From contig JAWZSP010000004.1 of the NCBI GenBank assembly GCA_034401135.1, positions 4,526,001 to 4,590,000 on the forward strand: 64,000 nucleotides of DNA. Direction: 5' to 3'. The notes beneath the pieces were generated by a model. The model was not told the origin of the DNA. It did no database searches and was given only the letters and a program-made list of their open reading frames with translations. Below, in pieces: positions 10,935-31,788 of this stretch (positions are counted from its first letter, which is position 1; the number at the start of each line of letters is the position of its first letter). The position numbers were made by a program, and so were the translations under genes. This stretch comes from Volutella citrinella (lineage: Eukaryota; Ascomycota; Sordariomycetes; Hypocreales; Nectriaceae).

Positions 10935-13431
10935 ATGGCTGCCACGAATGCGAGAGCCCCCGTCTGGGAGCCCACCAGGACCCACGAGACGGAAACGGCC
11001 AAGTTTATGAGCTTTGTCAACCAACGACATGGCCTGCAGCTCCGCACCTATGATGCCCTGCACGCATGGTCAGTGGCCCCAGACACGTTCCAGGACTTCT
11101 GGCAGGATGCATACACCTGGCTCCAGCTATCTCCCGCGGGATCGACCAAGTCTGGACCGATGATTGCGAAACAGGTATGCAATAATAATCTGCAGAATGG
11201 CTGGTCTTCTTCCACGCCGACATCCCATTGACTCGATGTACTAGGACAATTCGGATGTGCCAATGTTTCCCCCGCCACAGTTCTTCCCCGAGGCATCGCT
11301 CAACCTTGCAGAGATTATACTCAGGGACCGCCAAGACGGCGACAATGCAATCCACTTTGTACGCGAAGGCGTTCCAGGGATTGAGCACGTCACCTGGGGG
11401 CAAATCCGGGAGCGCACGCGGCGAGTCCGGTCTGCCATGGCCAACACGGGAGTCAAGCCTGGAGATGTCATTGCAGCAGTCATTTCCAACTCTGTCGATG
11501 CCATGGTCATTGCGCTCGCCACCATTTCCCTCGGCGCCATCTGGTCATCCTCATCCTGCGACCTAGGCTCTGGGGGCATCGTTGATAGGTACAGCCAGGT
11601 GAAGCCCAAGCTGGTGTTTGCCGACGATGGCTACGTCTACGCGGGAAAGACGATCAACCTGGAAAAACGCATCAGCCAGTGGTCGAGCGAGCTCGGAAAG
11701 GTCAATGAGCAACTGGAAAATGTTGTCGTCATTCCTTACTGCAACCAGAAGCCTGTCATCTCAAAAATCTATCGTGGCTGCACTTTTGAGTCCTTTCTGG
11801 CTCGGGACTCTGGAGATGTTCTTGAATTCAACATGGTGCCCTTCTCGCATGCCGCATTTATTCTCTATTCTTCAGGCACTGTAAGAATGCATTCAGCCTT
11901 CCTTCCTGGACAGCTAAATCTAACACGCAACAGACCGGCAAGCCCAAGTGCATCGTTCATACGATGGGAGTAGGTCTCACCAATCACACATTCCAAAGCG
12001 GAAACTAAAATCACTACAGGGAGTGGCATTGAAGGTCAAGGCCGACATGACGCTACAGAACGACGTTAGGAGAACAGATGTAGCGTTCCAGCACACAACG
12101 GTAAGAAAGCAGCAGACTTGCTTGAGTTGCTCCCCAGCTAATGCCGGGTAGACGTCTTGGGTGATGTGGGTCATCAACTTTGTCAATCTCTCCTGCGCTG
12201 CCTCCTTGCTCCTCTTTGACGGGTCTCCTTTCCATCCTCGGCCAACAATACTGCTGGAGCTTGCGCAAGAAGTTGGGTATGTTCATCTACTAACCCTGGG
12301 GTTCTACCGTCGGTGCTAACCCTACTCTAGCGTCAACGTCTTCGGTACATCACCAACCTATCTGAAGAAGTTGAAAACTCTCAACATTGTCCCTCGTAAG
12401 ACTGACGCGAGAAGCCCCTTTCATGTGAGCTAATGGGCCGTACAGGAACCCAATTTGATCTGAGGAACCTGCGAGTGGTGACGTCGACTGGCTCGGTACT
12501 CCCATCCGAGCTGTATGAATGGTTCTACGACACAGCGTTCCCGCCGGCGCATTTAGTATCGATGAGTGGAGGCACTGACATTGCCGGGGGCTGTAAGTGA
12601 CCACGTTCAGCAGTTGTGAGTTACCACTAATCGCTGAACAGTCGTTGGCGGCTCGCCTCTGTTGCCGGTATATGCTGGTGAGATCCAATGCAAGGTCCTC
12701 GGAATGGCCGTCGAGATCTTCGACTCGGTAGAGGACTCGGGCGTCTCTGTCGAGAAGTCTGGCCAACCCGGAGAACTCGTCTGCACCAAGCCCTTTCCGA
12801 GCCAGCCCCTCACGTTCGTGGGCAAGGATGGGCCGGCCAGATACAAGGCGTCGTACTTTGACAGATTTGGGCCCAACGTTTGGTGCCAGGGAGACTTTGT
12901 CCAACGGTTGACAGATACTGGTGGCTTGCTTATGCTTGGAAGATCGTGAGTCATCAAGCCTGATCATTTGCGTGGCTTCATACTTACTCCGACTCAAGGG
13001 ACGGCGTGCTCAACCCGTCAGGCGTTCGATTTGGCTCTGCAGAGATCTATGCAGTGACAGACACCATCCCAGAGCTCGAGGACTCACTATGCGTGGGCCA
13101 GAGACGCTCCATCGACTCAGACGAGCGAGTCTTGCTCTTCGTCAAGATGAGGCCTGGCAGCAAATTCACGGCCAGTGTAGAACAAACGATCCGGGCGGCT
13201 ATCCGGGATCGGTGCTCTCCCCGCCACGTGCCAAAGTATGTGTTTGAAATCGCCGACATCCCCTACACGGTCAACGGGAAGAAGTGCGAGATCAACGTCA
13301 AGAACGTGGTCAGTGGGCGAAAGGTTGCCGTCAGCGGGACGGTCGTCAACCCAGAAGCAGTGGAGCTGTACAAGAAGTACCAGGACCTGCCTGCAGAGGG
13401 GGCGGCAAAGCCACTGAAGGGGAAGTTGTAG
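10935..13431 (+). CDS. Acetoacetyl-CoA synthetase (acetoacetate-CoA ligase)
   Basis: Nine exons are in phase: 10935-11174, 11245-11880, 11934-11969, 12020-12100, 12152-12276, 12331-12395, 12446-12592, 12642-12945 and 12999-13431. They give 688 aa, normal for this ANL-superfamily enzyme. It activates acetoacetate with ATP and CoA to acetoacetyl-CoA in the cytosol, for sterol synthesis or salvage of ketone units. The ATP-binding A3 motif SSGT-TGKPKCIVHT is assembled across an intron. The family-typical HTTTSWVMWVINF is rebuilt across another. Also present are GGTDIAGG, the late WCQGDFV motif, and the C-terminal VNGKKCEINVKN with the adenylation lysine. All motifs are intact. The unusually dense introns (eight) explain why no long open frame marks this gene. 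It ends 173 bases from the convergent regulator gene. Confidence 0.95.
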
Positions 13432-13604: not shown

Positions 13605-16052
13605 TTAATCATCAATCATACTAGGCTCCGTTCGGGTATCCATGATCCGCGACGCCTGCGTGAAGAGCGAGTCCATCCGCAGCAGAGCCGGCCGCAGCAT
13701 GGCGACGGCGTCCTCATTGTCGGCCAGCTCGCGACACCGGTTAAGAGCAGAATGCACGCTCTCCAGGAGACGGAACGTCGCCTGCACCCGGTCCGACGTG
13801 GGAGCCATGAGGAACAGGAAGACGAGGAAGTTTCCACACAGCACAAGCTGTGCACGGGCGTCTTTGTGCAATGTCGTCGGTCAGCTTCTTAGGGTGCGAG
13901 TGAGGCCCAGGGGGGTTGTTACGTACGAGCTCCCCAGAAGCGGTTTAGTGACGGCGCGTCTATGCTCTCGATGAAGTCGTAAAACTTGGCAAACTCGTTG
14001 AGCACCTTGTCGAAGAAGCGGCGCAGCGACGACTTGGGATCGAGCTTGGCCGTCATTGTGGTTGGCCACATGAGGGCGCGGAAGAGCAGCGCCTTGACGG
14101 CAAAGAAGGCGAGGTGGAGCGGCCCTACGAACTCGTCAGATCAAGAAAACCATGCATGAAAAGCCAGCGGGTCAACTACCGTTGGTACCAAAGTCTTGTG
14201 GATCGTCCGAGGACATGCTACTCACACAGCTCGGCCTCAGCAACAGCCAGCTGTCGAGCCGTCTCTCAATGTCGAGCAGCTTGGCCTCCCTGGCGGGCGT
14301 GTCGCCAATGGTTGACTTGTAGCCCTGGTCGGAGCTAACACAAAAAGGTGAGCCAGGCTGTCATGTCATAACATCTAGGTCGGGCGAGGACTCACTAGAA
14401 GTTATCCAGCAGCTCGTGCAAGATGCGGCCGAGCTTGACCGACTCGACGAAGCGGGCACTCGCGGTGATGCCACAGATGTCGTCGACCAGGTGCTTGAGA
14501 TCATCGTCGACGTGCTCGTCCTCGGCAACGTCGTCAATCTCGACGGGCGCCGTGGTGAAGGAATCGCTCGAGATGTGCGGCGGGTTGCCGTGACAGACGG
14601 ACGTCCACACGTCGGTTAGGTACGCAGCCCAGAACAGCTTGCGGCGCACCCGCTTCTCAACAGGCGCTATGCTCCACAGGCGGGGGTCCCGGTGCAGCCC
14701 GAGGATCTGGGCGCTGGCGGCGGCCTGGGCGGACAGGATCCAAGTGCGGGGCGTCTCGGTGGTGAAGTTGTCCCCCGGACGCTCGTGCAGCAACAACAGC
14801 GCGGCCTGGTGCGTCCACTGGTTGATTGCATGGCTCTCTGTGTGCAGCGACGCATGGGCCAGCCGAAACAAACGGTGCACACACGGCGGCGCAAGGCCCC
14901 GGCAGCGGGGGTCGCGACGCCACGACATTGCGCCGAGGGCGTAGACGGCGCCACGCAGCGACCCGGGGACGGAGGTCACGCTGGTGCGGTACGCGCGCAG
15001 GAACTGGCTCTTGGACACGACCAAGTTCATAGGGTGGACGTGTCTTAGGTACAGCGACACGAGCAGCGGGCCTTGGTCGCCGACGAGCGTCTCGATGGCG
15101 TCCGACGCCTCCTGCTTGGCCTGTCGGTCGCGCGGCGGGAGGTCGTCGGTGACGAAGTTGAAGTGGATGGGGGGTTCGCCGCAGGCTGCGTCGCCGGGGA
15201 ACACCTGGATCATGTCGGCGTCGACGACGTTGCGCTCGTTGACGATGACGGACCGTAGTGACGCTAGGAGGTTGGTGTCTTGCTCGCCGGACAGGCCCAT
15301 TGAGTGTGCGGTGCGCAGCTCGCCGTAGTGGAACGTCTGTGTTGTCCGTGGCCTTGCGGGGCTGTGGCCGGAGGTGCTGCTGTCGTGGTGGCTGCCGTTT
15401 GAGGGAGACTTGTGGGCGTCAAGGGCGGTTGAGGTCGAGTTGGACGCGGGGGACGGTATATGAGTCCCTGGGCTGGGGGAAAAGGACGACGGGGCGTCGT
15501 TGTCCTGTGTCTGTGTAGGTGCTGGTGGTGCTACATCCACTGGGTCGCAGGTAATTTCAAGTCCATCATCTTCGTTTGAGCCATAGTCGAGGCCAACGGC
15601 CTCTTGATCAACCGTTGCATCTTCAACTACGACTTGCTGCTCTTCCTCTTCTCCGGTGGGCGACAGTGGGAGTTGGTTCCTTTGCCGTCTCCGCCGCGGT
15701 GGTAGTCGGGAGCTAGACGCACACGGTAGACCTCTTGTCTTGCAAAACATGCCTGAATTGATCAGTTTCTAGACAAGCCCGCACATGAGTCGAACTGGAA
15801 GAACCCCACGACTCGGCACTTACAGGGCGGCGCAGTCTCAATGATGCAGGCCGTCTTGCGCCGTCGACACACATCGCACGGACGACTGGTGCGGCTTCGC
15901 CATTTCCGCGCGCCGCCAAAGTTGGACCTGACCCTGAAGGCGGGCTCGTGGCTGGACGGCGACTGCTCGTCTTGAGGGAGTAGTGAGGCCATGTCGGAAC
16001 CGGGCAGCAGAAGGTCGTTGGTTGCATCTAGGGGGGAATCCGGGGTACTCAT
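13605..16052 (-). CDS. Zn(II)2Cys6 fungal transcription factor
   Basis: The minus-strand exons are 15824-16052, 14396-15752, a short one ending near 14226-14334, about 13927-14124, and 13605-13861, giving about 715 aa. The first intron splits the fourth cysteine codon of the zinc cluster. After joining, the cysteines are C59, C62, C69, C77, C80 and C87 (spacing 2-6-7-2-6), a canonical Zn2Cys6 finger preceded by basic residues. A Glu/Ser-rich linker follows. A fungal-specific regulatory domain begins around residue 220 (LVSLYLRHVHPMNLVV) and includes RRKLFWAAYLTDVW. Splicing of exon 3 to exon 4 is ambiguous: a GTGTGA donor with the TAG acceptor at 14125-14127, or a GTGAGT donor with a GAG acceptor a few bases earlier. 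Both keep the frame. It could control the metabolic genes beside it, but this is inferred from position only. Confidence 0.88.
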
Positions 16053-16288: not shown

Positions 16289-19200
16289 CTACTCCCTATA
16301 CACCTCAATCACACTCGGCGGCTCGCGGTGCTCGCCAACCGGCACATACCCAACCCCCGCAAACCCCATGGCCGCCGGCCCGCCCAGCGCCATGCCCCGC
16401 GCCGTGTCCGTCCACCGCCGCGACGCCGCCATGGCCACCACCACCACCCGCAGCCCGTACCTGTACTCGGGCGTGCCGAGCCCGCTGCCCGTCTCGGCGT
16501 CCAGCACCGCAATCAGGTCCGGCACCGCCGCCAGCGTCTTCACCTCTCCGTCCGCCGCCACGGCCTCGACATACGCGTTCTCGTTCTTGAACGGCACCCG
16601 CACCAGCGCCCGCGTGCCGTCGCCCAGCACACCATCCACCTCAAGCAAGCCGTACGTATGACCCGTCCGCAACACACGCTCCACGCCCACGACCTTGCCC
16701 TCGGCTAGCACCCGCGCGCTGCCCGGCCCACCCACCGCATCGATCATCGCCCGCGTCTTGTCCGCCATGCTCTTCTCCGCGGCGACGGCCCGTCCGATCC
16801 ACCATGCCAGCGACACCGTGTTCCCGACCGCCTGGTCCCTTACCACCTGCGCCGTCTTCGGCGGTCCGGCGTTTCCCGCGCGGCACCCCATGACGACGCA
16901 GGCAGCCCGCAGCGTCGAGTCGACCATCTCATCGGACCGCGTCTCCGTCAGCGTCACGAGCGTGCCGTCGCCGCTGGCAATCGTCGTCGGCACCAGCGCC
17001 TCGCCGCGCGGGCTGCCGTAGACGTTGGCCGTGAGCTGCCACATTGTGGGATACGCCCGGCCCATCCAGTCGGCGTCGACGCACGGCACGCCCTTGAGCG
17101 CCGCGACGCCCAGGTTGACGACGCCGTTGCCGCCGCCAATCTCGGCCGCCAGGAAGCCAGAGACGGCGGGGCTGCCCGTCGCTCGCATCAGCTCCTCGTG
17201 CGCCTGGAGGCACTCGTTGTTCTCGAGACGCTCCATGCTGACCTCGGGGCTGCCGATGCACGCCGTCCAGCCCACGAGGCTGTCTTTGGGGAGGGAGTGA
17301 GGGGACACGACTCGTATTGAGCCCGGTGCGCTCTCTAGGATGGACTTGGCCTTGAGATACTCCTGGTAAGGGTCTCCGCCGCCACCGCAGCCGAGTACTT
17401 TGCATCCGGCTGCGATGAACTCGAGATCGATGGCTGACACGATCCATTCGTCGTCCTTGATCAGTGGCTTGTATGTGGAAATGTCGGTTGGCCTGTCGCC
17501 GCTCGTCTTCGTAGGCGGACATCTGTCTTCAATGTGCCTCGACTCTTCTGTCACCTCCTCGAGCTCAAGGCCAATAACCCCAACTTCCACCTCCTCATCC
17601 GCCACCACAACGTCCAGCTCTCCAATTGCCCGTGCAATGATGCGCGCCTTGGAGTCGGCATACTGGACAGGCAGCATGGTGAACTCGGCAACCTCTACAG
17701 ACTCCTCCCTGGCGCCCTGCCGGACAGTCTTGTCCATGGCGAGCTGCCGAACCCTCTCCTGGGCCTGCTTGATCGTCTGGTTCGTCGTGTCCACCACCGT
17801 GTCCACCACGGCCGAGACCCGCGAGATTGCGGCACCGACGGCATTAGCTACCTCTCCCCCCTTGACTGTCCGGATCGCTCGCACGCCCTTCCACTCCTGG
17901 TCGGCGTCGACGATGAGAGAGCCTCCGCCGACGACAAGCACGTCCACTGCGCCCTTCTGGACCTTGGTCCTATCGATGAGCTCCTCGAGCATCTGGCGGA
18001 TCAACACCCGGGATTTCTGCAGCACATCGGGGGCCACATCGTCTAGGCGGCTCGGGTCGCCGCCCAGCTCCTTGAAGGGGTTGCGCTCCTCCCCGTTGGA
18101 AGCGACAGCAACGTCCGAGGTTGTCAGATATTCCCCCCCAAACATCTTCGCCTTGGTCAGCAGGTTGAGCGCGACGCTGTCTGGTCCAATCGACACCTGG
18201 CCGCCCTCTATGTCCCTCACAATGCTTCCTCCTCCCAAGCCGATGCTTTCGACGGCCGGAAGAGCAAAGTTAGTACGCACTCCGCCAACAAAGCTCGTCA
18301 CAGAGCTCATCATGGGCAGGCCATTCGCGAGAAGCAGGCCGCTGTCGGAAGTAGTTCCTCCAATGTCGACAACCACCAGAGCCTCGTCTCGATTGCCGTC
18401 GCTGTTACTGCCTTGGCCCTCCACGCCTGCACGCCAGAGGAACTCGCCGCCTCGGATCGAGTTGGTGGGACCTGAGTTGAAGGTGCGAATGGGAAGCTCA
18501 ATGGCATCCACTGCCTTGAGGATGCTGCCGTCGTTTTGTGTAAGATACAGAATGCACTGCTCGTTCTCAAAGATGTGCTTTATGGCCCTTTGGAACCCCC
18601 GGATCGTCTTCTCTGCCAGTGGTCGCAGCGTCGCGTTGAGGATGGCAGCATTCTCCCGAGCGAGGAAACCGAGCTGCGACACCTCATGAGACATTGTGAT
18701 GCGGGGCCTGGACCCTCTCGGCATCAGCTCGCCCATGCGTGACAGCATAATCTCCCGTGCGCGCGCCTCTTGCGTGTGGTTCATCGGCGAGTACATGCCT
18801 GAAATGACAATGTTGGAGGATCCCGCCTCGACCAGCTGCTCCGCCACGCGCGCAATCTCGGCCTCGTCTAGGGCGCTGATCTCCTCCCCAGAGATCTGGT
18901 AGCCTCCATGGCAAAAGTACGACGGCGTCTCGATTCTGCCTCGCAGGTCGGCGGGGAAGTCGATAAAGGGCGGCAGGTCGCGACCGAAGCCGTCGTCCGG
19001 CCCGCCGCAGAGCCGCACCAGGCTCACGCGACGCAGCGCAGAGGACCGCTGGATGACGGCATTGACAAAGTGTGTGGTGCCGATGATGACGCACGCGATG
19101 GAGGAGAGGGAGACTCCCGAGGCGTCAATCACGGTGCGCACGGCGTTGGTGATGCCTGTGGTGATGTCGGCAGTCGTGGGGGCCTTGTGCGACGCCAATA

Positions 19201-19379
19201 TAGACATGGGGTCGAGTGAGATGAGGACGGCATCGGTGTTTGTACCTAGACTTGAAGGGTAAGCTGTCCATCACACAAGAGGGAGCGCCATGCAGTGTTT
19301 GCGGCGTGGCTGGCTCACCTCCTACATCGACGCCGATGCGATACGTTGCACTCCCGTCGACAATCCTGGCTGGGGACAT
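16289..19379 (-). CDS. Hydantoinase A / DUF917 fusion protein
   Basis: Two exons, 19319-19379 and 16289-19245, join in phase 1 to give 1005 aa. The short first exon is needed because it completes the N-terminal phosphate motif IGVDVGGTNTDAV. The N-terminal half (about residues 13-540) is a hydantoinase A/oxoprolinase-type ASKHA domain. It has the second phosphate motif VVVDIGGTTSDSG near 311-325, SHEVS near 206, and the adenosine-side VLVVGGGSLIVD near 456-468. The C-terminal half (about 625-1003) is a DUF917 domain with GCGGGGDPY and AAEIGGGNGVVNLG. Known relatives cleave cyclic amides such as hydantoins or 5-oxoproline using ATP, but this fusion's substrate is not established. An upstream in-frame TTG at 19406 is not a credible start. 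It shares a divergent promoter with the dioxygenase gene. Confidence 0.92.
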
Positions 19380-19987
19380 TGTCTGGCTACAATTAGGCTT
19401 ATCCAATAAAGGACGTTGTGTGTTCCAGATGACTGCAGAGCGATGTCTGTGTCCTGGACGAGGGCGATTTTATGTGCATGTCGTTTGCCTTGATTGCGTG
19501 CCAAAGGTCAGTGTCAATTGATGTCGCTCAAGATACGCCGTCTGTTGATCCAGACACTTTGGCTTCACAGTAGCCCGCATGAAGTCGTAGCGATTAGTGG
19601 TGCACCGCTGCCCACGTCACCGTCGGCCTACCACGGCCGATGACTTGGCCGATGCACCTCGCCGATCCCCCTCTCGCTGCGACCTGGTGACGGATCGGCC
19701 TTTCCAAACGCTCTGATCTCGCCATCTCGAGTAGACGCACTCGAATGCATCGAATCCAATCGCTGGATGCAAGTCGGTAGTTGAAGGAACTGGCCGATGG
19801 CATCAGGCCAGTCTCACCCACGTCACCATCGCCAACTGCCGAGGCCGCCGCAGATGCTCACTTACAGACGACGTCGACAAGTATAATAGCGAGGTCTTGT
19901 GGCTCGTTCCTTTCTCTGAGAAGACGCCATTCTGACATCTTCATCTCGTTGAATTGAATCACCTCGAGCCGTCAAAAATCCATCACC
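19380..19987. promoter_or_regulatory. Bidirectional promoter, hydantoinase / dioxygenase genes
   Basis: This 608-base interval separates two divergent genes. It contains exact GGCCGATG at 19635-19642, 19647-19654 and 19792-19799, the reverse-strand ATCGGCC at 19694-19700, and partial copies (TCGGCC near 19623, GCCGATC near 19661). A TATA-like stretch (GTATAATA) lies near 19880, about 105 bases before the dioxygenase start. The density of the element points to binding of a specific regulator, which is inferred. Confidence 0.6.
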
Positions 19988-21064
19988 ATGGGCTCCGTGG
20001 CAGACCAAGACGTCCCCATCCCAATCATCGACTTTGAGCCATTGTTAGGTGACGACACCAAGCAAGAGTCGTATGAAAGGGCAGGCAAGGAGATTTACTC
20101 GGCATTCAAGAATGTCGGCTTCGCGTACATCAAGAACCATTCTGTGCCGCAAGAGGTGGTGGACGAAGCGTTTAGCTGGGTGAGTAAACATGTCACGGTT
20201 CTCTCACAGCCATGGCTAACTCGATCACAGAGCAAAAAGTTCTTTGATCTCCCCCAGAGCGAAAAGGACAAGGTGCCTCACCCGCCCGAGGGATGGTACC
20301 ACCGCGGCTACTCTGGCATCGGCCGCGAAAAGGTGACGCAGATGGTATTCGACGACGAGGGCATTGCACGCGAGCGCCAGAAGCCCGACGTCAAGGAGTC
20401 GTACGAGATGGGCCACGACAAGCCGGGTCTCAAGCTGCAGAACATGTGGCCGGCCGAGGAGGTCATCCCCGGGTTCCGCGCCTTCTTCGTGCGCTTCTAC
20501 GACGTGTGCTACGCCATGGAGCTCAAGCTGCTGCGGGCCATCGCCGTGGGCATGGGCCTCGACGACGACTTCTTCGTCGACTACCACCGCGACAAGCAGA
20601 ACCAGATACGGCTGCTGCACTACCCGCCCGTCGACGAGGAGCTGCTGACCACGGGCAAGGTGGACAGCATCGGCGCGCACACCGACTTTGGCACCATGAC
20701 GATGCTGTTCCAAGATGCTGTGGGCGGGCTCGAGGTTGAAGACATTCACAGCCCGGGCACGTTCATCGCGGCGCCGTACGTGCCGGGGACTATTGTCGTC
20801 AACATTGGCGACTTCTTGATGCGTTGGAGCAATGACGAGCTGCGGTCGACGCTGCATCGTGTGCGCACGCCACCGGCCGAGGCGTCACAGTCTGGGGGAC
20901 CGCGCATGACGAGAGCGCGGTACTCGATTCCCTACTTTGTGTCGGCTGACGAGCACCGCACTATTGACTGCGTGCCAGGCTGCTGGGGGCCTGACCGGCC
21001 CAAGAAGTATGAGCCGGTCAACAGCGGCGAGTACATTAACATGAGACTGAATGCGACCTACTAG
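19988..21064 (+). CDS. 2-oxoglutarate/Fe(II)-dependent dioxygenase
   Basis: Two exons, 19988-20179 and 20231-21064, give 341 aa. The family is isopenicillin-N-synthase-like 2OG-Fe(II) oxygenases, with an N-terminal DIOX_N domain (IPIIDFEPLLG ... FKNVGFAYIKNH) and a C-terminal Fe2OG domain. The iron ligands are visible as GAHTDFGTMT (His and Asp) and STLHRV (second His). The 2OG-binding Arg and Ser are in RARYSIPYF. These enzymes hydroxylate or desaturate small molecules using O2 and 2-oxoglutarate. Candidates include thymine-7-hydroxylase-like or secondary-metabolite oxygenases, but the substrate cannot be read from sequence. The intron is 51 bases with no stop, so the unspliced message is also open. 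Splicing is preferred because it joins FSW to SKKFFDLP, the usual family spacing. Third positions are very GC-rich. Confidence 0.93.
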   Translation: MGSVADQDVPIPIIDFEPLLGDDTKQESYERAGKEIYSAFKNVGFAYIKNHSVPQEVVDEAFSWVSKHVTVLSQPWLTRSQSKKFFDLPQSEKDKVPHPPEGWYHRGYSGIGREKVTQMVFDDEGIARERQKPDVKESYEMGHDKPGLKLQNMWPAEEVIPGFRAFFVRFYDVCYAMELKLLRAIAVGMGLDDDFFVDYHRDKQNQIRLLHYPPVDEELLTTGKVDSIGAHTDFGTMTMLFQDAVGGLEVEDIHSPGTFIAAPYVPGTIVVNIGDFLMRWSNDELRSTLHRVRTPPAEASQSGGPRMTRARYSIPYFVSADEHRTIDCVPGCWGPDRPKKYEPVNSGEYINMRLNATY

Positions 21065-21681
21065 TTGGAGCAGGGGGGAATGTATGGATAGTGTTTGTTA
21101 GGCAATTGACTGGTCTGCACACGAGACATGACGAAAACTACTTTGAGTGCATCGCTACATGATCAGTGTAACCGTTACCATGATTACACGGCTTCTGTTA
21201 TTGGTCATCTGAAGCTCTGGCTATTTCCGGTCCCACAGACGGCACAAGGGTCAACCATGAGGGGCTCACCGTCGGCCAATCCAGCAGAGAGACCCTATCT
21301 AGAGTAGGCCGATGCCAAAGTAGGCCGATGCAACATTGCCCATTCCAATATTGAAAGCTGGCCGACACCATGGCGACATCTAACCAACACGTCAAACCAG
21401 GATTCGAAACGTCACCAGGCCATCCGCCGCCCGCAGCTGCACACTGAACAGAGATTACCGACGCGCGCACCTTGTCCTGTTATGCTGTCATCATCAAGTC
21501 TGCCGTCTCCACCCAAGATATCCGCACCCCACAATCGCCATGTCCTGTGATGGTCCGAGACGTGGGTCCCGAGTCCCGATGTCGCCGTTCGCTTAGCAAC
21601 GGGCCGCGATGCGCTTAAAGGACGCACAAAGCGATCAAGCTCAAGACTCTCGGCCAACAGCGCAAAGCATATCCCAGAACA
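21065..21681. promoter_or_regulatory. Promoter region of the zinc alcohol dehydrogenase gene
   Basis: After the dioxygenase stop this 617-base gap holds two identical TAGGCCGATG blocks at 21305-21314 and 21321-21330 (exact GGCCGATG at 21307-21314 and 21323-21330). A TCGGCC is near 21272 and a GGCCGAC is near 21361. They are the same element found in the promoter to the left. No gene is seen in the interval. Confidence 0.55.
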
Positions 21682-23120
21682 ATGGCCGGTCAAGACGTCA
21701 TGAAGGCCGTCGTCTTCGACGGTCCCTACAAGATCTCCATCCAGGACAGGCCCGTCCCCAAGCGTAAGCCCGAGAAGCGAGAAACCTGCAGAGCCCCCGC
21801 TCCAGTGGGCTAACATTTTTTCAACAAGTCCAGGACAGTCAGGACATTATCATCAAGATCACTGCCACAGCACTATGCGGCTCGTAAGTTTGCATAATTT
21901 TGCACAACCACCCCTGCTGTGTTTCCCTGGGAGGGCGCCCGCAGGAGATACTAGTACTGATATCCATGCCTACAGTGAACTTCACACGTACCGTGGCATC
22001 GAGAAGCCCGAGCCCGGCTTCATCATGGGCCACGAGTTCACCGGCACCGTGGTCCAGAAGGGAGACGGTGTCAAGACAGTCGCAATTGGCGACCAGGTCG
22101 TTGTCCCCTTTACCACCTCGTGGTCAGTCACAATCATCCCATCTTTGCTGCTCCAAGACTAAATGCGATGCCCAGCATGGACTGCTTCTACTGCAACAAC
22201 GGATGGTCCTCGCGCTGCAAGAACTCCCTCCTGTTCGGAAGCCCTACCCTTGACGGCGGTCAGGCCGAGTACGTCCGCGTTCCGCATGCCGATGGCACGG
22301 CGCTCAAGGCCCCGACCAACATCCCCGAGGAGGCCCTCGTGCTCATGGCCGACATCTTCCCCACGGGATACTTTGGCGCAAAGAACGCCTTCAAGATGCT
22401 CGAGATGGATCCCACCGAAGCCACGGTGGTGGTCATCGGCTGTGGCCCGGTCGGTCTCTGCGCCATCATTTCTGCCCTCGAACACAAGCCGAAGCACCTC
22501 TTTGCCATTGACGGCGTCGACAGCCGCCTGGAGCTTGCCAAGTCACTGGGTGCTCAGCCCCTGAACTACCTCCATGGGAAGGAGGCCATGGTTCAAGCCA
22601 TCAGCGAAGCCTCTGGTGGTAGGGGTGCCGACGCTGTCATCGAGGTTGTCGGGTTGAGCTCTGCCCTGAGGACCGCGTATGACGTGTCCCGACCTTGGGG
22701 TGCCATTAGCAGTATTGGAGTCCACAACGCAGAGGTATGTTACCAGAACAGGGGACTATGCAGTTGAATGCTAATACTTGCCCCAGATTCCATGGTCTAG
22801 TGGCGAGGCCTACGAGTAAGTGCACAAAAGCCACGACCATGCGCACTCGCGAATTTGCTAACTGAGACGCAGCAAAAACATCCGCACGCAGATGGGCCGT
22901 TGCCCTGTCCGCTCCGTGTTCCCGGAAGCCCTGGAGGTGCTTGCCAAGAACCACCACAAGCTTGGGTACGTGAAACAATGAGATTCATGTGAGCAGCGCT
23001 GACGAGATTGGACGCAGATTCATGTTTGAGAAGATCATGCCTCTGACCGAGGCCGTAGAGGCCTATGAGATTTTCGACCAGATGAAGGTGCAGAAAATTG
23101 TGTTTAACCCCAACAAATAG
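21682..23120 (+). CDS. Zinc-dependent alcohol dehydrogenase (MDR family)
   Basis: Seven exons are in phase: 21682-21763, 21829-21883, 21976-22122, 22176-22734, 22787-22815, 22873-22965 and 23018-23120, giving 355 aa. It is a medium-chain GroES-like dehydrogenase. The catalytic zinc ligands are in TALCGS and GHEFTG. The structural zinc lobe is rebuilt across an intron as C-MD-C-FY-C followed by C seven residues later. The NAD(P)-binding Rossmann motif is VVIGCGPVGLC. It should oxidise an alcohol or reduce an aldehyde in the cytosol. Family resemblance is to the broad threonine/sorbitol-dehydrogenase-like branch and does not give a substrate. All zinc ligands are present, so activity is expected. 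The promoter carries two copies of the GGCCGATG element. Confidence 0.94.
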
Positions 23121-23539
23121 ACGTGTTGGAGGGTATTTGCATAGGTGAGCGGCGTTGCGAGGCAGGGATGGGCATTGGGAGGGTTGGTCGGCGTTGGGGC
23201 TTGGAGGCGTGAAGTAGTCGAAATAGAAAAGAAATAGATGAGACTAAGAAATCTGGTTTGGCCGCTACACTGTTTCTCTACATGATCAATTGGCATTGAG
23301 TAGGCGCATCAACTATTGTTGTTCCATGGAAGTATGTGAAAGGCGAAGTAGATGAGATACTGGTAAGCAAGGCAGCAAAAATCCATGTTCCCAGGCGGAG
23401 CAATGCAATGAGAAAGTAGGTTGTTTTCTTAAAGGGAGACGAAGCAGATTTTCTATTCACTTGGCACAGCTAAGCCGTAAGGAAACCGGGCTGTTGGAGT
23501 AATTCCCGGTTTCTAATGTCCGCGGTGCTTCGACAAGCA

Positions 23540-24682
23540 CTATTCATCATCGCCGAAAAACACCTTTATCGGCATCCAACCATCTCCCACAACCTTGCTG
23601 CGCGTTTTGACACCACTCAACTCAGCCTGCTCATCCTCAGTCAAGCTCCATCCGTCCAGGTCAAAGTTTGAGCTGATGCGCGAGGGAGTCACGCTCTTGG
23701 GGATCATGCTCGTGCCGCGCTGGAGACCCCATTTCACGCTGCCGTCGTCTTAGCTATGTCCATATTTTATTCGTCGGATCATCCATGACTTACAGAATCT
23801 GTGCTGGCGTCTTGCCCTTGGCCTCGGCAATCTTGAGTAGTGTGGCGTCGTCGCCTAGGTTTGTGTGGTTGTTGATGTCGGAGCTGTTGTGGCCGCCGAG
23901 ACACGAGTAGGCGGTGCAATGGATGCCCTTTGACTTGCAGAAATCAACAAGTTTTGTCCTTGACCGGGCATTAGTAATAACTCTCCACGGATTCTCATTG
24001 AGGCTTACGAAGGGTTGTAAGGGTGAAGCTGTGCCCGTGTTGGTTAACAATGAACTTCGTTTTCAGTGCGTACAAGTCAGGGAAACCCGACATACCTCGA
24101 GCTGGTTTACAGCGGGCACGATTTTGCATGAAGGATCACTCAACAGCTTCTCCAGGTGGCGAATCTGAAAGTTGGACACTCCAATGTTCTTCACCTTGCC
24201 AGTCTCAAGAAGCTTTTGCATCTCTTGCCTGAAACCGAGTTAGCAGCCCTCCATTGTGCTCAACCTAGATTACGCGCTCACCAAGTATTGACATAATCCC
24301 AGTCAGGCAGATGCTTGGAAGTGTCATCTGGATCTGTTGAGCAGGGGAAGTGAATTAAGAATAGATCCACATAGTCAAGGCCGAGATCGTTGAGAGACGA
24401 CTCCAGGCCCTCGGCCGCTCGATGGTGCCAGGTATTGTCCAGCTTGGTCGTCACCCAGATCTGCTCGCGGGGTACGCCCGATGCACGAATGCCCTCTCCA
24501 ACAGCCTTTTCATTCTGATAGTTGAGGGCGGTGTCAATATGGCGATATCCACTCTCCAAAGCATGCTTCACGGCCTCCTTTGTCTGGTCGTCGGCAGATT
24601 GCCAGGTACCCAGACCGATTGCCGGAATGGAGGAGCCATTGTTCAGCTTGAATGTGAGAGTGGATGAGTTGGTGTGGTCCAT
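23540..24682 (-). CDS. Aldo-keto reductase
   Basis: The minus-strand exons are 24282-24682, 24096-24228, 24009-24028 (20 bases), 23794-23958 and 23540-23738, giving 305 aa. The micro-exon encodes LHPYNP, a conserved AKR segment, so it is well supported. The catalytic tetrad is complete: D50 and Y55 (GYRHIDTALNY), K80 (VTTK) and H111 (LIHFP). The C-terminal NADPH-binding segment is SMIPKSVTPSRISSN. The family reduces aldehydes and ketones with NADPH, and glycerol-dehydrogenase-like AKRs are the nearest impression. An upstream in-frame ATG at 24715 adds 11 residues. The one at 24682 is preferred because it has A at -3 and gives the usual N-terminus. It is transcribed away from the permease and shares its promoter region. 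Confidence 0.92.
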
Positions 24683-24715
24683 GCTGGTCTGCGTATCTTG
24701 AGATCCAGGGGGCAT

Positions 24716-25379
24716 AAGTGAGATAGGTCAGATGGAGATACGAGTAAGTGCTCCAAACGCTTGGGTGAACAAGGGGAACCGAGATCAAATACGCGAGCCG
24801 GAGATGGCTGGAACTGGGGACAAGGGTGAATGCTAGCAGGCGCTCTCCACATGGGGCACGAGAGATCTGGCATATTCATCTGTCGTCGTCACATTGTCTC
24901 AGTACCAAGTGGAGCAGCCATCACCAGGAATTGAACTGAGCGACAAGGGGATGTCCGAAACGGCCTAGATATTACCCTTACCCCGCTAGCGTCGGCCTTC
25001 ATGACCATGCTATCTCGGCGTAGCTGCCGTGGTTGGTGCTGCCGATCATCACTGGCGTGCTATCGCGAGACACGATCGGCCTAGTTTGATACTCAGCCAT
25101 CGGCTTATCTATGTAGGTATCCCAATCCTTAGTCCGCCCCGCAGTGTCCCTATCCGACGGGCAACGACATCTCACGGCCGGTACATTATAGGCTTGCTGC
25201 CCCGACTTGCATCCGTCGTGGGGCCCTGGAGACAAATAAGAATTACGGCAACGTTTGCATTGATCTTTGTCTGACAAAAAAAAGCACGTTTAATTCGCGT
25301 CTTCACGGGTTTCGCGCGTATTCCCCACGTGGCTTGCCTGTGTCATTAAAAAGAAACGACCAGTCAATCATTCATCTAA
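24716..25379. promoter_or_regulatory. Bidirectional promoter, aldo-keto reductase / NCS1 permease
   Basis: This divergent interval holds ATCGGCCTA at 25075-25083, the reverse complement of the TAGGCCGAT core seen upstream of the dehydrogenase, and CATCGGCT at 25098-25105. GTCGGCC is near 24990. No gene was found in it. Confidence 0.5.
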
Positions 25380-27544
25380 ATGAAGCTGGATTGGGTCTCC
25401 GTCAAGCGGAGGCTTGAGTGGTGAGTTGCATCAATGCCGCTTCCGCTGTTTGGTTGATGCTGACTGCACGCAGCCCGAAGGATGAGGATGCCGACTACAC
25501 CAACACGCAGTGGTGCAACCGCGACCTGATTCCGATTCCCAAGGACCGCCAAACCTATGGCCAGTGGTCATATGTCGGTATGAGTTCACGATGCCCTTTC
25601 ACTAAGCGTCCCTGACCCGTCATAGGATACTGGACCGTCTCTGGCTCCTGCGTTTCAGCATGGTCGACTGGCAGCACACTCTTGGACTTTGGCCTTAGCC
25701 CCCAGCAGGCCATTGGCGTCGTCGTAAGCCATCCATCAGCCTCTTTTTGACGCAATTCTGACATGTTCCACAACAGATCATCGGAGCCGTCATCACCGGC
25801 CTTCTCGCCGTCGCCTGTGGATGGATGGGAGCCCATCACCACATCGGCTTCACCGTTTCGAGCCGATTTAGCTGGGGCATGAGGGGCTCATACTGTGAGT
25901 CTTGGAAGGTTTCATTCAACAGACACCTGCTAACTTATCTGCTAGTCCCGGTCATGCTTCGTGTCTTCGTCTCGTGCATGTGGTTCGGCATCCAGGCCTT
26001 TTGGGGCGGCCAAGCCACCCGAGTCTGCATTGGTGCCATCATTCCTGGTGCGGTGTGTCGAATATCCCATCTTCAGACGCGAAACTGACATCTTCAAGGT
26101 CTCGCCAACATGAAAAACTACTTTGACCCAGCCTCGCACCTCGAGACAAAGGACTTCATCGGCCTTGTCATCTGGATGTGCATCTTCATCCCCTGCGTCC
26201 TCATCAAGCCCGAGAAGCTCCAGATTCCCTTTGTCGTCTGCTTCTGTCTCTTTTGTGGCAGCTGCTTCGGCCTTCTAATCTGGTCAGTATCCACGTGGAC
26301 CAACAGCCCACCACATCACACAGACTAACACCTTAGTTAGGAGTACGTCGCAAGCCAGAGGAGTCGGCGACATGTTCCACCAGCCTGCCTCAACACCCAA
26401 CGTGGGATGGGCCTTTATCTTTGGCATCACATCGATCCTTGGCTCCTGGGGCGCTGGAACTCTTGGCCAGTCTGACTGGACACGCTATGCCGAGAAGAAG
26501 CGATCCCCGATTCTCTCCCAGCTCCTGGCTTCGCCGTTGACGATTACCATTACCGCTATTATTGGCATCATTGTCACCAGTGCATCCCGCAGAGTTCTCG
26601 GAGGTGAGATCATATGGAACCCCATCCAGCTCCTTGGTTCCATTCAACAGCACTACGACTCAACGCCGCGCGCGCGAGCGGCTGTCTTCTTCGGCAGCCT
26701 TGGCATGGTGGCATCCCAGCTTTCGGTACGTTTTATTCTATGTTCTGGACAGCGCAATGCCTAATTTTTCGCAGATCTCAGTTGTCCTGAACTCGGTATC
26801 CTGTGGTATGGACATGGCAGGTCTCTGGCCAAAGTACATCAACATCCGCCGTGGTAGCTACATCATGGCCATTATCGGAATTGCCGTGCAGTAAGTTCCT
26901 ATTGTTCATGCTTACGTAGCCTTACGATGCACGAGCTAATACTTCCCACAGGCCCTGGCAACTCATCACTACAGGGACCAAGTTCCTGCAAGTTCTCAGC
27001 GGATTTGGCGTTTTCATGGCCCCTGCCACGTAAGAAAGGACTCCCTTGCCATCAGAGAATCTTGCATACTAACGTTCGTAAAGTGGCATCATGCTGGCAG
27101 ACTATCTCGTCATCCGTCGACAGAAGCTCAAGCTGAACGACCTCTACGTCGGAGACGAGTCCTCCATCTACTGGTTCAAGAAGGGCATCAACTGGCGCGC
27201 CTTTGTGGTCTTCATCATGAGCATGTGGCCGTTCCTGCGTACGTATTCTGACCTGACCCGATGCACACACCAGACTAACGCGCAATGCAGCTGGCCTCGT
27301 CGGCACCGTCAATGCGCTTGAGGACAAGTTCTACGTCCCCTGGACCCGGCTTTACAACATGACGTTCCTTGTAGGCCTCTTGTGGAGTTTTATTCTTTTC
27401 TGGGCCGTCAACTACTTCTTCCCTGTCAACGGGTTGGGCGAGGATAGTCCGTTTGAGGGCAACGATGTTGTCATGGGCATCGACACCCTCGATGGCTCGA
27501 GCGAGTTGGATCGGGAGCGAGAGAAATTCGAGTCCAAGGTCTAG
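25380..27544 (+). CDS. NCS1-family permease (uracil/allantoin/hydantoin-type)
   Basis: Eleven exons are in phase: 25380-25420, 25474-25577, 25626-25723, 25777-25894, 25946-26047, 26099-26282, 26341-26725, 26775-26890, 26952-27029, 27084-27238 and 27291-27544, giving 544 aa. NCS1 marks include the N-terminal NRDLIPIPKDRQTYGQWSYV, ACGWMGAHHHIGF, WFGIQAFWGG, GQSDWTRYA, and DMAGLWPKYINIRRG followed by PWQL. About twelve membrane segments are expected. NCS1 carriers import purines, pyrimidines, allantoin, thiamine precursors or hydantoins (the bacterial hydantoin carrier Mhp1 is in this superfamily). The fungal Fur/Dal4 branch fits best. The donor of intron 5 (G-GTGCGG) was chosen because the nearby alternative breaks the frame. 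Its closeness to a hydantoinase-type enzyme suggests uptake of the same ring compound (inference). Confidence 0.93.
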
Positions 27545-28236: not shown

Positions 28237-29376
28237 TTAATCAGACTGTTTCAGAGGCCCGTACGGAGGCTGAACGGGAGGATCCGGATCGGGCGGAAGG
28301 TCAACCACCGGCTCTCTCTCGTACTCGGGATCACTTATGAAGTATTCGGGCGGCAACTCTGTGTGATGGGAAAACTCGGGTGAGTTGTACCATCGACGCT
28401 TTGCCCATCCCCTCCAAGCCGCGGGATTCGACTGGTGAGGCTCAGGCACAAACGGCAAAAACTCAAAAGGCGCCCCGAGGTCTTTCTCGTACATGGGATT
28501 GACAGGCTTGGGAGCGTCATATGGCCCCTGCTTGCAGCCCGGTCGGAAAAGAGTCAGGGCGACGTTAAAGTCGAATAGGTAAACGCGTGGAGGCTTGTAG
28601 TTTTCAGGGTCAAGGCCCACGAGAAAAACATTCCTCGGGGCTACATCTCGGTGCCTGATGCCAGCATATTCCAGCTTTATTTCCATCTCTATCGCTTGTC
28701 CAATGATATCAAGGCGGTCGGCTGGCGGAATGCAAAAGGCCAGTTGTTTCCGGAGCAGTTTCTCGATTGTGTAGCCAACAAGCTCTTCGAGCAGAATAAC
28801 ATGGACACGGCGCATTGTCGCGGGAGGGCCAGGAAATGGAATATCCATTGTCCATGACCCGAAATACTTTGGTGTATATTTTCCGTCAAGGCCAGCGTAA
28901 CGGATGTCCTCATAGGCAGCCACTTCCTGGGTGTAACCAGCGAAGGCCTCGAATGTTACGTCGCCACCACGAAATTGATAGTATAGAGGGTCGAAGATTT
29001 TGGCGACGAGCTTTTGGTCAGGCATCTCTTTGACAGAGCACTTGAAGACCTTTGCGCCATGGACTTTCTTGGATGAAAGCTGCTGATGCAAATGCATAGC
29101 GCGCTTCTCTTGGCCGCTCCAGGGAGGGAGATTTGGGATCGGATTCTCAATACACCATTGGCTGTGTGTGTACTTTAGCCCCATCCTGTCCCAGTCCCAG
29201 CCCTTTGTCTTATAATCACGGGGCTTTAATGCCCCTTCGGGCTGGTGGTAGAAGCTCCCCAGAGGATCTGGTGGGATATCTTGTTGCAGGAGAGCCTCGA
29301 AGCCGTCCCCGTAAGGCATCGGCGGCCTTCGGGGGTCGGGAGGGAGTGGATCCCGGCGGAAGTCGACTTTTCCCAT
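28237..29376 (-). CDS. Protein-kinase-like protein with altered DFG motif
   Basis: A single exon encodes 379 aa. The first 100 residues are rich in Pro and Asp. A divergent kinase fold follows, with a VAIK-like lysine in QKLVAKIFDP (about residue 125), EVAAYEDI as a possible alpha-C region, the hinge-like HVILLEEL, and the catalytic loop RHRDVAPRN near residue 243. The metal-binding motif reads DFN rather than DFG (YLFDFNVAL). The C-terminal 100 residues are Pro-rich and tyrosine-rich. Such short, divergent kinase-like proteins are expanded in Pezizomycotina, and their activity is mostly untested. HRD aspartate and asparagine are kept, so catalysis is not excluded, but the Gly-to-Asn change suggests altered nucleotide handling. 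No introns or cofactor domains were seen. Confidence 0.82.
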   Translation of the reverse strand: MGKVDFRRDPLPPDPRRPPMPYGDGFEALLQQDIPPDPLGSFYHQPEGALKPRDYKTKGWDWDRMGLKYTHSQWCIENPIPNLPPWSGQEKRAMHLHQQLSSKKVHGAKVFKCSVKEMPDQKLVAKIFDPLYYQFRGGDVTFEAFAGYTQEVAAYEDIRYAGLDGKYTPKYFGSWTMDIPFPGPPATMRRVHVILLEELVGYTIEKLLRKQLAFCIPPADRLDIIGQAIEMEIKLEYAGIRHRDVAPRNVFLVGLDPENYKPPRVYLFDFNVALTLFRPGCKQGPYDAPKPVNPMYEKDLGAPFEFLPFVPEPHQSNPAAWRGWAKRRWYNSPEFSHHTELPPEYFISDPEYEREPVVDLPPDPDPPVQPPYGPLKQSD

Positions 29377-30603
29377 CGGTAAATGACGGATATCTGGGCC
29401 GCTAGCGATGGGTGTCGAAGATGGGGCGAGAAAATGTGTGTGAAGGCTGGAGGCTCAGGAACAAAGAGAGTGAATGTTGGGTGACTGAGAGGCAAGGTGG
29501 TTGGACGCCTTAGGCATCAGCTCTCCCATGCATAGCCGCCCAAGCGCCTAGCCAATGGCGCCAGACTCGCGTGGTATTGCCCCACCTTTCCTGGCCCGGT
29601 TCCTGCAGCCGCTCACCTGAACCGAAGTTGATGCAGTTTGCTGCATTCTGCCTTTCGTCGGAAGCCGATTTGCTAGTTCTGGCAAACAAGATTACGTCTG
29701 GAGATGCTAAAAAAAAGCCCTGGATGATCCGAGCAAGCGCTGAGCATGGGCTTGGGCTGGGTTTTTCCTCTGCGCAAGCCAAAAATGTCTCAGCACAATT
29801 CAGCGAGAGCCTGTCGATATGTGACTTGCAACCAACAGGTGGATCCTGGACCAGCCTGGTGCCTAGCCAGCAGACCATGTTCACGCAGTTCGCGCGGTTG
29901 GCACGGTCTTTACGCGAAGTCCACGAGCCCGTGCATGCGTCTTGGGCGATTCCTTCAGCTTCCAACGGCCCCCCAGGCGGCCTAGTCTCCATGGTCTGTC
30001 CAGTGTCTGCCCATTGACACCACGCAGAACCAATAGCAGCCAGGTTCCTCCCAACCAACAACCAACAACCAACATGGGACCCAGATCCTGACATCTACTA
30101 AGCGCCCGTCCGCTCACCTGGCCTACTAGTCAGGGGAATTCCTGGCCTTGTCACCTTGTGCAGCCGCGCGCCTCCATCGACGGCCGCGCAAGCGTACCCC
30201 CCCATGCAGCCATGAGCTTCCTCATCACACTGCGTCCTAGCGGGCTTCGGGTCTGTGTACGTCACTTCAACCCAAGCAATATTTTATTATAAGATTGGTT
30301 CATATCGCGCCTTTGTTGGAATGTTCACAGCAACCCCAATGTTCAGCACCGCTCGACCGTTTGATCTACCGCTTCCCCCGTCTACTCTTCTTCTGGAAAC
30401 AAAGTAGCCGTTTCTCACTCCTCTCAATTCTTTCCCTCTCCTAATCCCTTGCCGAACCCATCCCTCACCAGATCCATCTCTTGCCTGGCCTAACAAATCT
30501 CGATCAAAATCTCCATTTCGCTTCCGCTCCTTTGTCTCAATTTCTATCCCGCCTCTTGTTTCATCTTGTTCCCAATCCTTCAATCCGCACCGCAAGACCG
30601 AAA
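29377..30603. other. Divergent intergenic region
   Basis: This should hold the promoters of the kinase-like gene and of the gene at 30604. Two minus-strand frames at 29510-30117 overlap an open plus-strand frame and show no domain, so they were not called. A pyrimidine-rich stretch (about 30360-30600) directly precedes the start at 30604, typical of a fungal 5' leader. Confidence 0.55.
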
Positions 30604-31788
30604 ATGAGCACCTCTATTCTGGAAAGCTTCGACGATCCTTTGAAAAAGTCGCCCAGCCCAAGGCCACCGCGTGCCTCAACACACGAGTCCCTTACCACGG
30701 CAGGATGTGACTGCCCCCGGTCTGCTATTAAAGTTCCGGTCGGGAACTGGGAGGCCGTCGGCGAGTCCGTTCTAAGGAACCCTCGTGTTCGGAACGAATT
30801 GGAATGGGCGCGGCTTGCCAGCTGGGAAGCTACTAGAGCTTTGGTCAACGAGGGCGACATATCCGACGCAGCCTCACCCCATCTTATGAATCCCGTTGAT
30901 CTAGCGCTCTCCTCTCACACGAAAAGCAAGGTCAGGGTCAGGAATCAGGCTCACACCGACACTGCCGTAGCGGACAGAGTCTGGCACCTCTCTCGTTCCG
31001 ACCCCGAAGACATAGTACCATCTTCATTTGCCGTCTGGGACTATAAACGGCTCGGCACCATTCATGGATCGGACTTCACCGGAGCTTTCCGAGCTGGTGC
31101 AGATCTCAGCAGCACCGGAATAGCTCCCCGCTCGACGAGATTCCAGGGCAACGGGGAAATCTTAGGCAGGGTTGCCACCAACTATGCCCGCACGTATGGA
31201 ACAAAGTATGTGGCCTTTTTCGACTGGGAATTTTTGCTCCTTTTCGTGATGGAGGATGCAGAAGAGAACTCGGGTGGTGATTGGTGCTGGTTGACAGTGG
31301 TCAAGAACCAAGAAACTGCAAGAATGAGACTTGCTTGGCTTGGCTTTCTTGCTACAGCTTACGACGAAAAGATGGGTAAAACCGACCTGTTTCTCGGAGC
31401 CTATATCCCCCCAAGGCGGCAAGTCAAAAGAGCTAGAAGGAGCGACGGACCTGGCCAAGGGGGCACTAAATCTGAGTTTTCTGCCTCTTCCACGGCTTCC
31501 CAGGCCAGGTACCAGCAGTACCTTACACCTTCGGGAGGGCCCAGTTCGAGTTATGAGTTGACCCGAGACTACGCGAGTGGGCCTGCTGCTAGAGGTGCCT
31601 CCTCGGAAGATGTGGTCTATAGAATGGACCAGCTTTCTATCGACCCGCGCCGCTCAAACGAACCACGACGATTAAGCGACTCATCCCGCCCGCCGAACCC
31701 GTTTGCGCCCCAGCCCAGGCCGGATCACGGCCAGGTGCCTTATGCTGAGCGAGACGACCAGCTTCAGTGGGATTATGGGCGACGATGA
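30604..31788 (+). CDS. Hypothetical protein, possible nuclease-like fold
   Basis: A single exon encodes 394 aa. The sequence is not recognised as a named family. Residues 45-110 are acidic/helical (GNWEAVGESVL ... MNPVDLAL). The central part has a hydrophobic strand ending AVWDYKRLG, then later a helix-strand pair GEILGRVATNYARTYG and KYVAFFDWEFLLLFVM. A strand with D/E-x-K followed by a helix and another strand is reminiscent of PD-(D/E)XK-type folds in fungal effector or crinkler-like proteins, but this is only a pattern. The C-terminal 120 residues are low-complexity, rich in Arg, Ser and Pro. A degenerate, internally deleted copy lies at about 35449-35724. The start ATG is the first in frame after the pyrimidine-rich leader. 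Confidence 0.72.
   Translation: MSTSILESFDDPLKKSPSPRPPRASTHESLTTAGCDCPRSAIKVPVGNWEAVGESVLRNPRVRNELEWARLASWEATRALVNEGDISDAASPHLMNPVDLALSSHTKSKVRVRNQAHTDTAVADRVWHLSRSDPEDIVPSSFAVWDYKRLGTIHGSDFTGAFRAGADLSSTGIAPRSTRFQGNGEILGRVATNYARTYGTKYVAFFDWEFLLLFVMEDAEENSGGDWCWLTVVKNQETARMRLAWLGFLATAYDEKMGKTDLFLGAYIPPRRQVKRARRSDGPGQGGTKSEFSASSTASQARYQQYLTPSGGPSSSYELTRDYASGPAARGASSEDVVYRMDQLSIDPRRSNEPRRLSDSSRPPNPFAPQPRPDHGQVPYAERDDQLQWDYGRR

Follow-up and report, generated by a model that had tools for sequence, protein, structure and literature searches.

Do the five adjacent genes at positions 16289-27544 of a 64,000-nucleotide stretch of the Volutella citrinella genome (contig JAWZSP010000004.1, positions 4,526,001 to 4,590,000 of the forward strand; hereafter the window) act together and, if so, on what kind of compound? 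They encode a HydA-type amidohydrolase fused to DUF917, also termed S-Me-THD (HYD), an Fe(II)/2-oxoglutarate dioxygenase resembling thymine-7-hydroxylase (2OG), a zinc-dependent medium-chain alcohol dehydrogenase (ADH), a DkgA-like aldo/keto reductase (AKR) and a Fur-type permease of the nucleobase/allantoin/hydantoin carrier family (NCS1). That HYD, 2OG and NCS1 belong together can be stated with high confidence, whilst a lower grade applies to ADH and AKR. As a whole, the locus is read here, with confidence that is evenly balanced, as a catabolic cluster, jointly regulated, that acts on a substituted cyclic ureide, i.e. a hydantoin-, dihydropyrimidine- or pyrimidine-like ring.

Models built from the window sequence, which lies on contig C4 of the searched genome (45.1 Mb in 26 contigs), resolve the locus into five intact spliced genes. 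HYD (16289-19379, reverse strand) encodes 1005 amino acids (aa) and has one intron at 19246-19318; this model was picked over an equal-scoring alternative because its start agrees with that of the homologue P0001. HYD is divergent from 2OG (19988-21064, forward strand; 341 aa, one intron at 20180-20230), which is followed by ADH (21682-23120, forward strand; 355 aa, six introns), whose model is one of several that scored equally and was picked for keeping the conserved core. ADH lies tail to tail with AKR (23540-24682, reverse strand; 305 aa, four introns) and AKR is in turn divergent from NCS1 (25380-27544, forward strand; 544 aa, ten introns). Pfam was run on the long open frames rather than on the spliced models, with all five gene families scoring above the cut-offs, and no further gene was seen among the five in the window sequence or the list of open frames. 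The five families, and their arrangement as two divergent pairs plus one gene, had been proposed in a first-pass annotation of the window, which the models and matches bear out.

Co-location of the core genes in other fungi

Co-location of HYD, 2OG and NCS1 in other fungi is evident from the locus tags of their homologues. For each gene, 120 homologues were listed (of 2726, 2962 and 293 matches, respectively), which yielded 42, 40 and 41 numbered locus tags; this tally excludes rows whose tags are not plainly numbered and also omits a few numbered rows (e.g. DTO271D3, YB2330, A8136). Each row represents a 90% cluster, and the order of the tag numbers is assumed to be that of the genes. Tags of the same genome lie no more than five numbers apart in five of the six HYD-2OG pairs, all five differing by 1, in seven of the eight HYD-NCS1 pairs and in five of the seven 2OG-NCS1 pairs. 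The complete trio is tied by tags in Aspergillus nanangensis only, where HYD, 2OG and NCS1 are the consecutive FE257_005916, 005917 and 005918, leaving no room for ADH or AKR in between; other genomes supply pairs. HYD and NCS1 are separated by three numbers, matching the gene count of the window, both in Clonostachys chloroleuca (V2G26_015518 and V2G26_015522) and in Penicillium argentinense (N7532_008729 and 008733). Two of the three core genes are also closely linked in Exophiala, Cladophialophora, Fonsecaea erecta and Capronia. Unlinked pairs comprise HYD-2OG in Fonsecaea nubica, 2OG-NCS1 in F. monophora and Ophiocordyceps sinensis, and one HYD-NCS1 pair in Capronia coronata, where A1O1_05325 is a paralogue of 42% identity and the linked copy is A1O1_07659.

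Short contigs of identical size point in the same direction. Homologues of HYD and 2OG were recorded on contigs of 15,297 bases, and homologues of 2OG and NCS1 on contigs of 20,639, 45,237 and 49,526 bases, which suggests that the members of each pair share a contig; equal size is taken here to mean the same contig, and the matches come from rows already seen to agree, such that they do not form a count out of a total. Same-sized contigs bearing 2OG and NCS1 homologues were additionally seen in two basidiomycetes, Amylocystis lapponica (20,639 bases) and Dacryopinax primogenitus, neither species being represented in the HYD rows listed (120 of 2726). A 2OG-NCS1 pair without a hydantoinase may exist more widely than the trio. 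In some lineages, ADH and AKR may have been added to a core composed of HYD, 2OG and NCS1.

The V. citrinella genome itself harbours HYD at four other loci, with 39-44% identity over the best stretches. At two of these four, C9:217000-226999 (near 222 kb) and C7:3183000-3192999 (near 3190 kb), a divergent NCS1 gene lies beside the HYD paralogue. In the stretches fetched, no NCS1 was detected at the other two loci, and no 2OG at the two NCS1-paired loci, at E 1e-3. A third HYD paralogue, at C9:436000-451000 (near 442 kb), adjoins a gene that encodes polyketide-synthase KR and ACP domains, with a luciferase-like monooxygenase gene nearby; this region is possibly a secondary-metabolite cluster.

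A shared promoter motif

All five start codons of the cluster face one of three intergenic regions, and these regions share the motif RTCGGCCW, i.e. RTCGGCC(T/A). The divergent HYD/2OG region (19380-19987) contains four sites (19622, 19646, 19694 and 19791), the region upstream of ADH (21065-21681) another four (21271, 21306, 21322 and 21359), and the divergent AKR/NCS1 region (24683-25379) two (24991 and 25075) together with a near-match at 25100. This amounts to 10 sites in 1,922 bp, where 0.42 would be expected from a genome total of 9,766 in 45.1 Mb, and the longer form RTCGGCCTA occurs four times in the same regions, against 0.017 expected from 388 genomic copies. The corresponding Poisson tails (3e-11 and 3e-9) have to be discounted because the motif was picked on these very sequences. 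The reversed patterns are found 4,410 times (RTCGGCCW) and 518 times (RTCGGCCTA) in the genome, which marks RTCGGCCW, but not RTCGGCCTA, as a common word of this genome.

The hexamer GGCCGA/TCGGCC is present 5, 5 and 2 times in the three regions, the maximum being 4 in a background of 437 overlapping 640-bp segments taken from ten 10-kb stretches at round coordinates and the rest of the window. GGCCGATG is found twice within 25 bases at 8 places genome-wide, 2 of them in the cluster, and two RTCGGCCW sites in the same direction, 2-32 bases apart, occur at 53 places, of which 2 overlapping ones are in the cluster. In an unselected test on noncoding-like triples of segments, no 6-mer was shared as often in any of 916 triples, which were drawn from only 40 overlapping segments; the equivalent frequencies in this set were 18/904 for 5-mers, 1/927 for 7-mers and 15/922 for 8-mers. 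RTCGGCCW does not occur in the tail-to-tail ADH-AKR gap, and the two paralogous NCS1-HYD gaps contain one copy and none, respectively. A perfect RTCGGCCTA also lies at 27828, downstream of NCS1 and away from all five starts. The distribution of the motif favours a five-gene regulon without deciding the identity of its regulator, and the five genes are probably co-regulated.

The HydA-DUF917 protein

The 993-aa open frame of HYD comprises, according to Pfam, Hydant_A_N (96.9 bits, curated cut-off 25.2), Hydantoinase_A (83 bits, cut-off 22.9), S-Me-THD_N and S-Me-THD_C, the last two constituting DUF917. Its glycine-rich motifs DVGGTNTD, DIGGTTSD and GGGS, which we take to form the ATP site, are invariant or nearly so, a few columns excepted, across 14 aligned homologues. 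The nearest relatives among the matches listed are from Fusarium (77% identity) and Clonostachys (71-72%). In a sequence search of the PDB, residues 9-369 of this frame match N-methylhydantoinase (7hk5/9h03) and, more weakly, caprolactamase and subunits of acetone and acetophenone carboxylases; the entry 6yra was labelled 5-oxoprolinase in this search and caprolactamase in the fold search. The latter started from the Fusarium orthologue as modelled by AlphaFold (mean pLDDT 74.9, pTM 0.72; weak at 566-602 and 758-812) and recovered the same families, followed by 2o3i, in an output without residue ranges. This structural-genomics protein is presumably a DUF917 member.

HYD is thus related through its HydA part, by sequence and fold, to N-methylhydantoinase, caprolactamase and the acetone carboxylase subunits, but is distinguished from them by DUF917 where a HyuB domain would be expected. 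The C-terminal half of HYD is DUF917, and no Hydantoinase_B (HyuB) match was obtained in the ten window frames scanned with Pfam. An assignment as S-methyl thiohydantoin desulfurase (NF058532) was rejected, the Fusarium orthologue P0002 scoring 75.4 bits against an equivalog cut-off of 450. In the available text of a 2024 paper, DUF917 proteins are termed not experimentally characterised (PMC11055893).

The dioxygenase, permease and redox enzymes

The 2OG frame, read through its small intron, carries the Pfam domains DIOX_N and 2OG-FeII_Oxy, and its best PDB match is 5c3p, the thymine dioxygenase (thymine-7-hydroxylase, T7H) of Neurospora crassa (246 bits, 42% identity). For that enzyme, the accessible text of PMC4787775 gives H214, D216 and H271 as metal ligands, R190, Y194, R286 and S288 as 2-oxoglutarate ligands, and F292, Y217, N87, E122 and N294 as substrate residues, with Asn87 bonded to O2 of thymine. 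In common with N. crassa T7H, the window protein possesses all seven metal and 2-oxoglutarate ligands, the ring-stacking F292 and E122; unlike it, the protein has His for N87, Phe for Y217 and Ser for N294, and its gene sits with a hydantoinase. The position of Y217 is Phe or Trp in some T7Hs, and an N294A change is harmless, according to the same source (PMC4787775). Among the 120 of 2962 homologues listed, F292 is invariant, His occupies position 87 in 111 and Phe position 217 in 113. On these residues, 2OG appears to belong to a specificity class of its own, suited to a flat ring, and not to be a plain T7H.

NCS1 matches Transp_cyt_pur on a 161-aa frame (69.5 bits), and its Clonostachys orthologue P0241 narrowly exceeds the TIGR00800 cut-off (354.8 against 353.1). 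The only solved relative detected at E 0.001 is Mhp1, represented by two recorded sequences (69 bits). In Mhp1, the substrate positions include W220, N314 and N318. Q42, W117 and Q121 are given as such in the available part of PMC3951388, and Mhp1 and FurE (PMC3951388, PMC10788122) share the NCS1 family with the window permease. Four of these six positions (W117, Q121, W220 and N318) are kept in the window permease, whereas Q42 is replaced by Cys and N314 by Ser, which are also the majority residues among the 120 of 293 NCS1 homologues listed.

ADH has an ADH_zinc_N match on a 262-aa frame and resembles 4cpd and 5yln and, more weakly, formaldehyde dehydrogenase and formaldehyde dismutase among PDB matches. 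AKR matches Aldo_ket_red on its first exon and shows a likeness to DkgA-type reductases below the NCBIfam cut-offs. In neither case do the matches name a substrate. It may be speculated that ADH could handle formaldehyde, should 2OG release this from an N- or O-methyl group.

Prokaryotic neighbourhoods of HydA and DUF917

The surroundings of 80 prokaryotic HYD relatives bear on the substrate. From 69 of these loci, 252 neighbouring frames, some of them spurious, were picked, and two hand-chosen sets of 60 were scanned with Pfam, of which the 25 commonest families were listed; two frames, L083:6995-8323 and L120:6585-7982, the second from outside the 252, were added to the scan for their match to an NCS1 hidden Markov model (HMM). 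In the first set, Transp_cyt_pur was found in 8 of 60 frames, including these two pre-selected ones, and in the second, SBP_bac_5 was found in 7, Asp_Glu_race in 5 and CN_hydrolase in 2 of 60. The Pfam counts are used in preference to the fungal NCS1 HMM, which was weak on prokaryotic frames, with hits in 2 of 80 loci at E<=1e-5 and in 17 frames at E<=1.

Four loci, selected for clean frames and an NCS1-like frame adjoining the HydA match, were read in detail. The order is NCS1, DUF917, HydA and CN_hydrolase in L110, and CN_hydrolase, NCS1, DUF917 and HydA in L093. In L116 (6537-12731), from a metagenome-assembled genome of Thermotogota, NCS1 is followed by HydA/DUF917 frames, an ornithine carbamoyltransferase and a carbamate kinase, both enzymes scoring above equivalog cut-offs, whilst in L083 HydA/DUF917 frames precede an NCS1-like permease, called from an HMM hit of 26.9 bits, and an Asp/Glu/hydantoin racemase. 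Carbamoyltransferase and carbamate kinase together form the usual route for harvesting a carbamoyl group, and the run in L116 looks like an energy-yielding breakdown of a cyclic ureide. The presence of carbamoyl-handling enzymes therefore points to an N-carbamoyl product, and hence to a cyclic ureide as substrate. In common with the window, all four loci combine a HydA-DUF917 homologue with an adjoining NCS1-like permease, and we infer that they are functional units; they differ from it in that HydA and DUF917 occupy separate frames (for DUF917, by scan in L110 and L093 and from the layout of the frames in L116 and L083), and in the CN hydrolase, carbamoyltransferase/carbamate kinase or racemase genes that accompany them. 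Oligopeptide transporters at other loci suggest that the HydA/DUF917 family acts on more than one class of substrate.

Proposed pathway and alternative explanations

A scheme in which the five proteins act in succession would accommodate these observations. The NCS1 symporter, from its family and retained residues, would import the ring compound. 2OG, with its catalytic residues intact, would stack the flat ring on the conserved Phe and oxidise a methyl or similar side group, and ADH and AKR, judged by family, may interconvert the resulting alcohol, aldehyde or ketone. HydA would then activate a ring carbonyl with ATP, with the DUF917 half taking the place of the HyuB partner that the cluster is without, and the two halves together would hydrolyse the ring to an N-carbamoyl (ureido) compound, a role and product suggested by the prokaryotic loci. 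The RTCGGCC(T/A) sites of all five genes are probably bound by one regulator. The hydantoin- or pyrimidine-like substrate of the first-pass annotation accordingly gains support from the prokaryotic NCS1-HydA/DUF917 loci and the T7H-like dioxygenase, whilst its lactam option is less favoured.

Several observations weigh against this scheme. Neither an N-carbamoylase nor a ureidase was recognised in the cluster. The co-location data concern HYD, 2OG and NCS1, such that the conserved co-location anticipated for all five families holds for these three by the tag tally, and is for ADH and AKR at most suggested, by tag spacing. The His at the position of Asn87 implies a ring contact unlike that of thymine. 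The motif was chosen after looking, and coding DNA in the background gives 30 of 4000 triples that share some 6-mer, and 57 of 4000 some 7-mer, as often. In prokaryotes, most of the neighbours scanned are not NCS1; the first set holds ABC_tran in 24 of 60 frames and oligo_HPY, a mark of oligopeptide transport, in 15, which makes peptide-like rings possible. Hydantoinase_B appears in 2 of the same 60, such that some prokaryotic relatives do adjoin HyuB, and the fungal 2OG HMM, searched against the frames of all 80 loci, gave no match at E<=1e-5.

The oligopeptide transport genes would suit the proposal that the cluster degrades, instead of a ureide, a lactam or a cyclic dipeptide (a 5-oxoproline-like compound or a diketopiperazine). 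Caprolactamase is among the relatives of HydA and, in the available text of PMC11055893, cyclodipeptide-oxidase clusters are enriched in DUF917 genes. This proposal appears unlikely, however, as the permease at the window and at two paralogue loci belongs to a nucleobase/ureide carrier family, and the four NCS1-bearing prokaryotic loci have carbamoyl-handling enzymes or a racemase. Rather improbable, too, is a pathway of thymine salvage, with 2OG as a true T7H, a permease for thymine or uracil and a hydantoinase acting on a downstream pyrimidine product. The 42% identity to N. crassa T7H, the retained metal/2-oxoglutarate site and Phe292 would suit such a role, as would the uptake of uracil and allantoin, among others, by Aspergillus nidulans NCS1 carriers (in the text available of PMC10788122). 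Nevertheless, the Asn that bonds thymine O2 is His in the window and in 111 of the 120 homologues listed, and Tyr217 is Phe in 113, although the latter change is reported for some T7Hs (PMC4787775, in the part available). Moreover, none of the five genes is isoorotate decarboxylase-like, and T7H alone takes thymine to 5-carboxyuracil, such that ADH and AKR would be superfluous.

Detoxification or tailoring of a nitrogen-ring secondary or plant metabolite, as opposed to growth catabolism, is decidedly improbable. 2OG dioxygenases, ADHs and AKRs are common tailoring enzymes, one HYD paralogue adjoins the gene with polyketide-synthase domains described above, and the T7H-like HxnY of A. nidulans has been proposed to detoxify (PMC9304392, as far as its text was available). 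Conversely, no backbone synthase turned up in the cluster or in the neighbours scanned, an uptake carrier and a ring-opening enzyme suit catabolism, and, for a tailoring cluster, the spread of the linkage over Aspergillus, Penicillium, fungi of the Exophiala group and Clonostachys is broad. That the genes are chance neighbours without a joint function is highly improbable and, for HYD, 2OG and NCS1, largely refuted by the tag-number linkage and the shared promoter motif; this explanation draws what strength it has from ADH and AKR, which come from large families, and from conservation evidence that covers the other three genes.

The preferred reading, catabolism of a substituted cyclic ureide, has a fungal parallel in the hxn nicotinate cluster of A. 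nidulans, a set for nitrogen-ring catabolism that, compared at the level of families, likewise includes a T7H-like enzyme (HxnY) and a ring-opening hydrolase (PMC9304392, from the part available). The hxn ring opener is the cyclic imide hydrolase HxnM, in contrast to HydA-DUF917 in the window, and the word NCS1 is absent from the main text of that paper (PMC9304392). A description of the present gene set was not found in the open-access literature searched. It is tentatively proposed, with less confidence than the catabolic reading itself, that the locus represents a eukaryotic pathway not yet described, in which ATP-dependent opening of a cyclic ureide, with DUF917 replacing HyuB, would follow oxidation of a side group by a new T7H-like class (Asn87 to His), under an RTCGGCC(T/A) regulon, and whose HYD-2OG-NCS1 core would be kept in Eurotiomycetes and Hypocreales.

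Neighbouring genes

To the left of the cluster lie a Zn2Cys6/Fungal_trans regulator gene (14395-16052, reverse strand), identified by Pfam with the zinc cluster read by eye and coordinates that lack a modelled 3' end, and an acetoacetate-CoA ligase-like gene (AACS; 10935-13431, forward strand), whose ends were read by eye and which scores 163-173 bits on one exon, under the full-length cut-offs. Both had been suggested as possible members in the first-pass annotation. The motif gives no support to this, as RTCGGCCW does not occur in the regulator-HYD gap and has a single copy upstream of AACS, and both genes are at most candidate members. To the right, the open frames at 28240-29454 and 30445-31785 gave no Pfam match at E 0.01.

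Significance

To our knowledge, little has been established about fungal pathways for cyclic ureides beyond those for allantoin and uracil. As a conserved set of genes that share a promoter motif, the cluster constitutes a small, genetically tractable system, through which the substrate of a family present in fungi, bacteria and archaea could be identified and a new class of thymine-hydroxylase-like enzymes defined.

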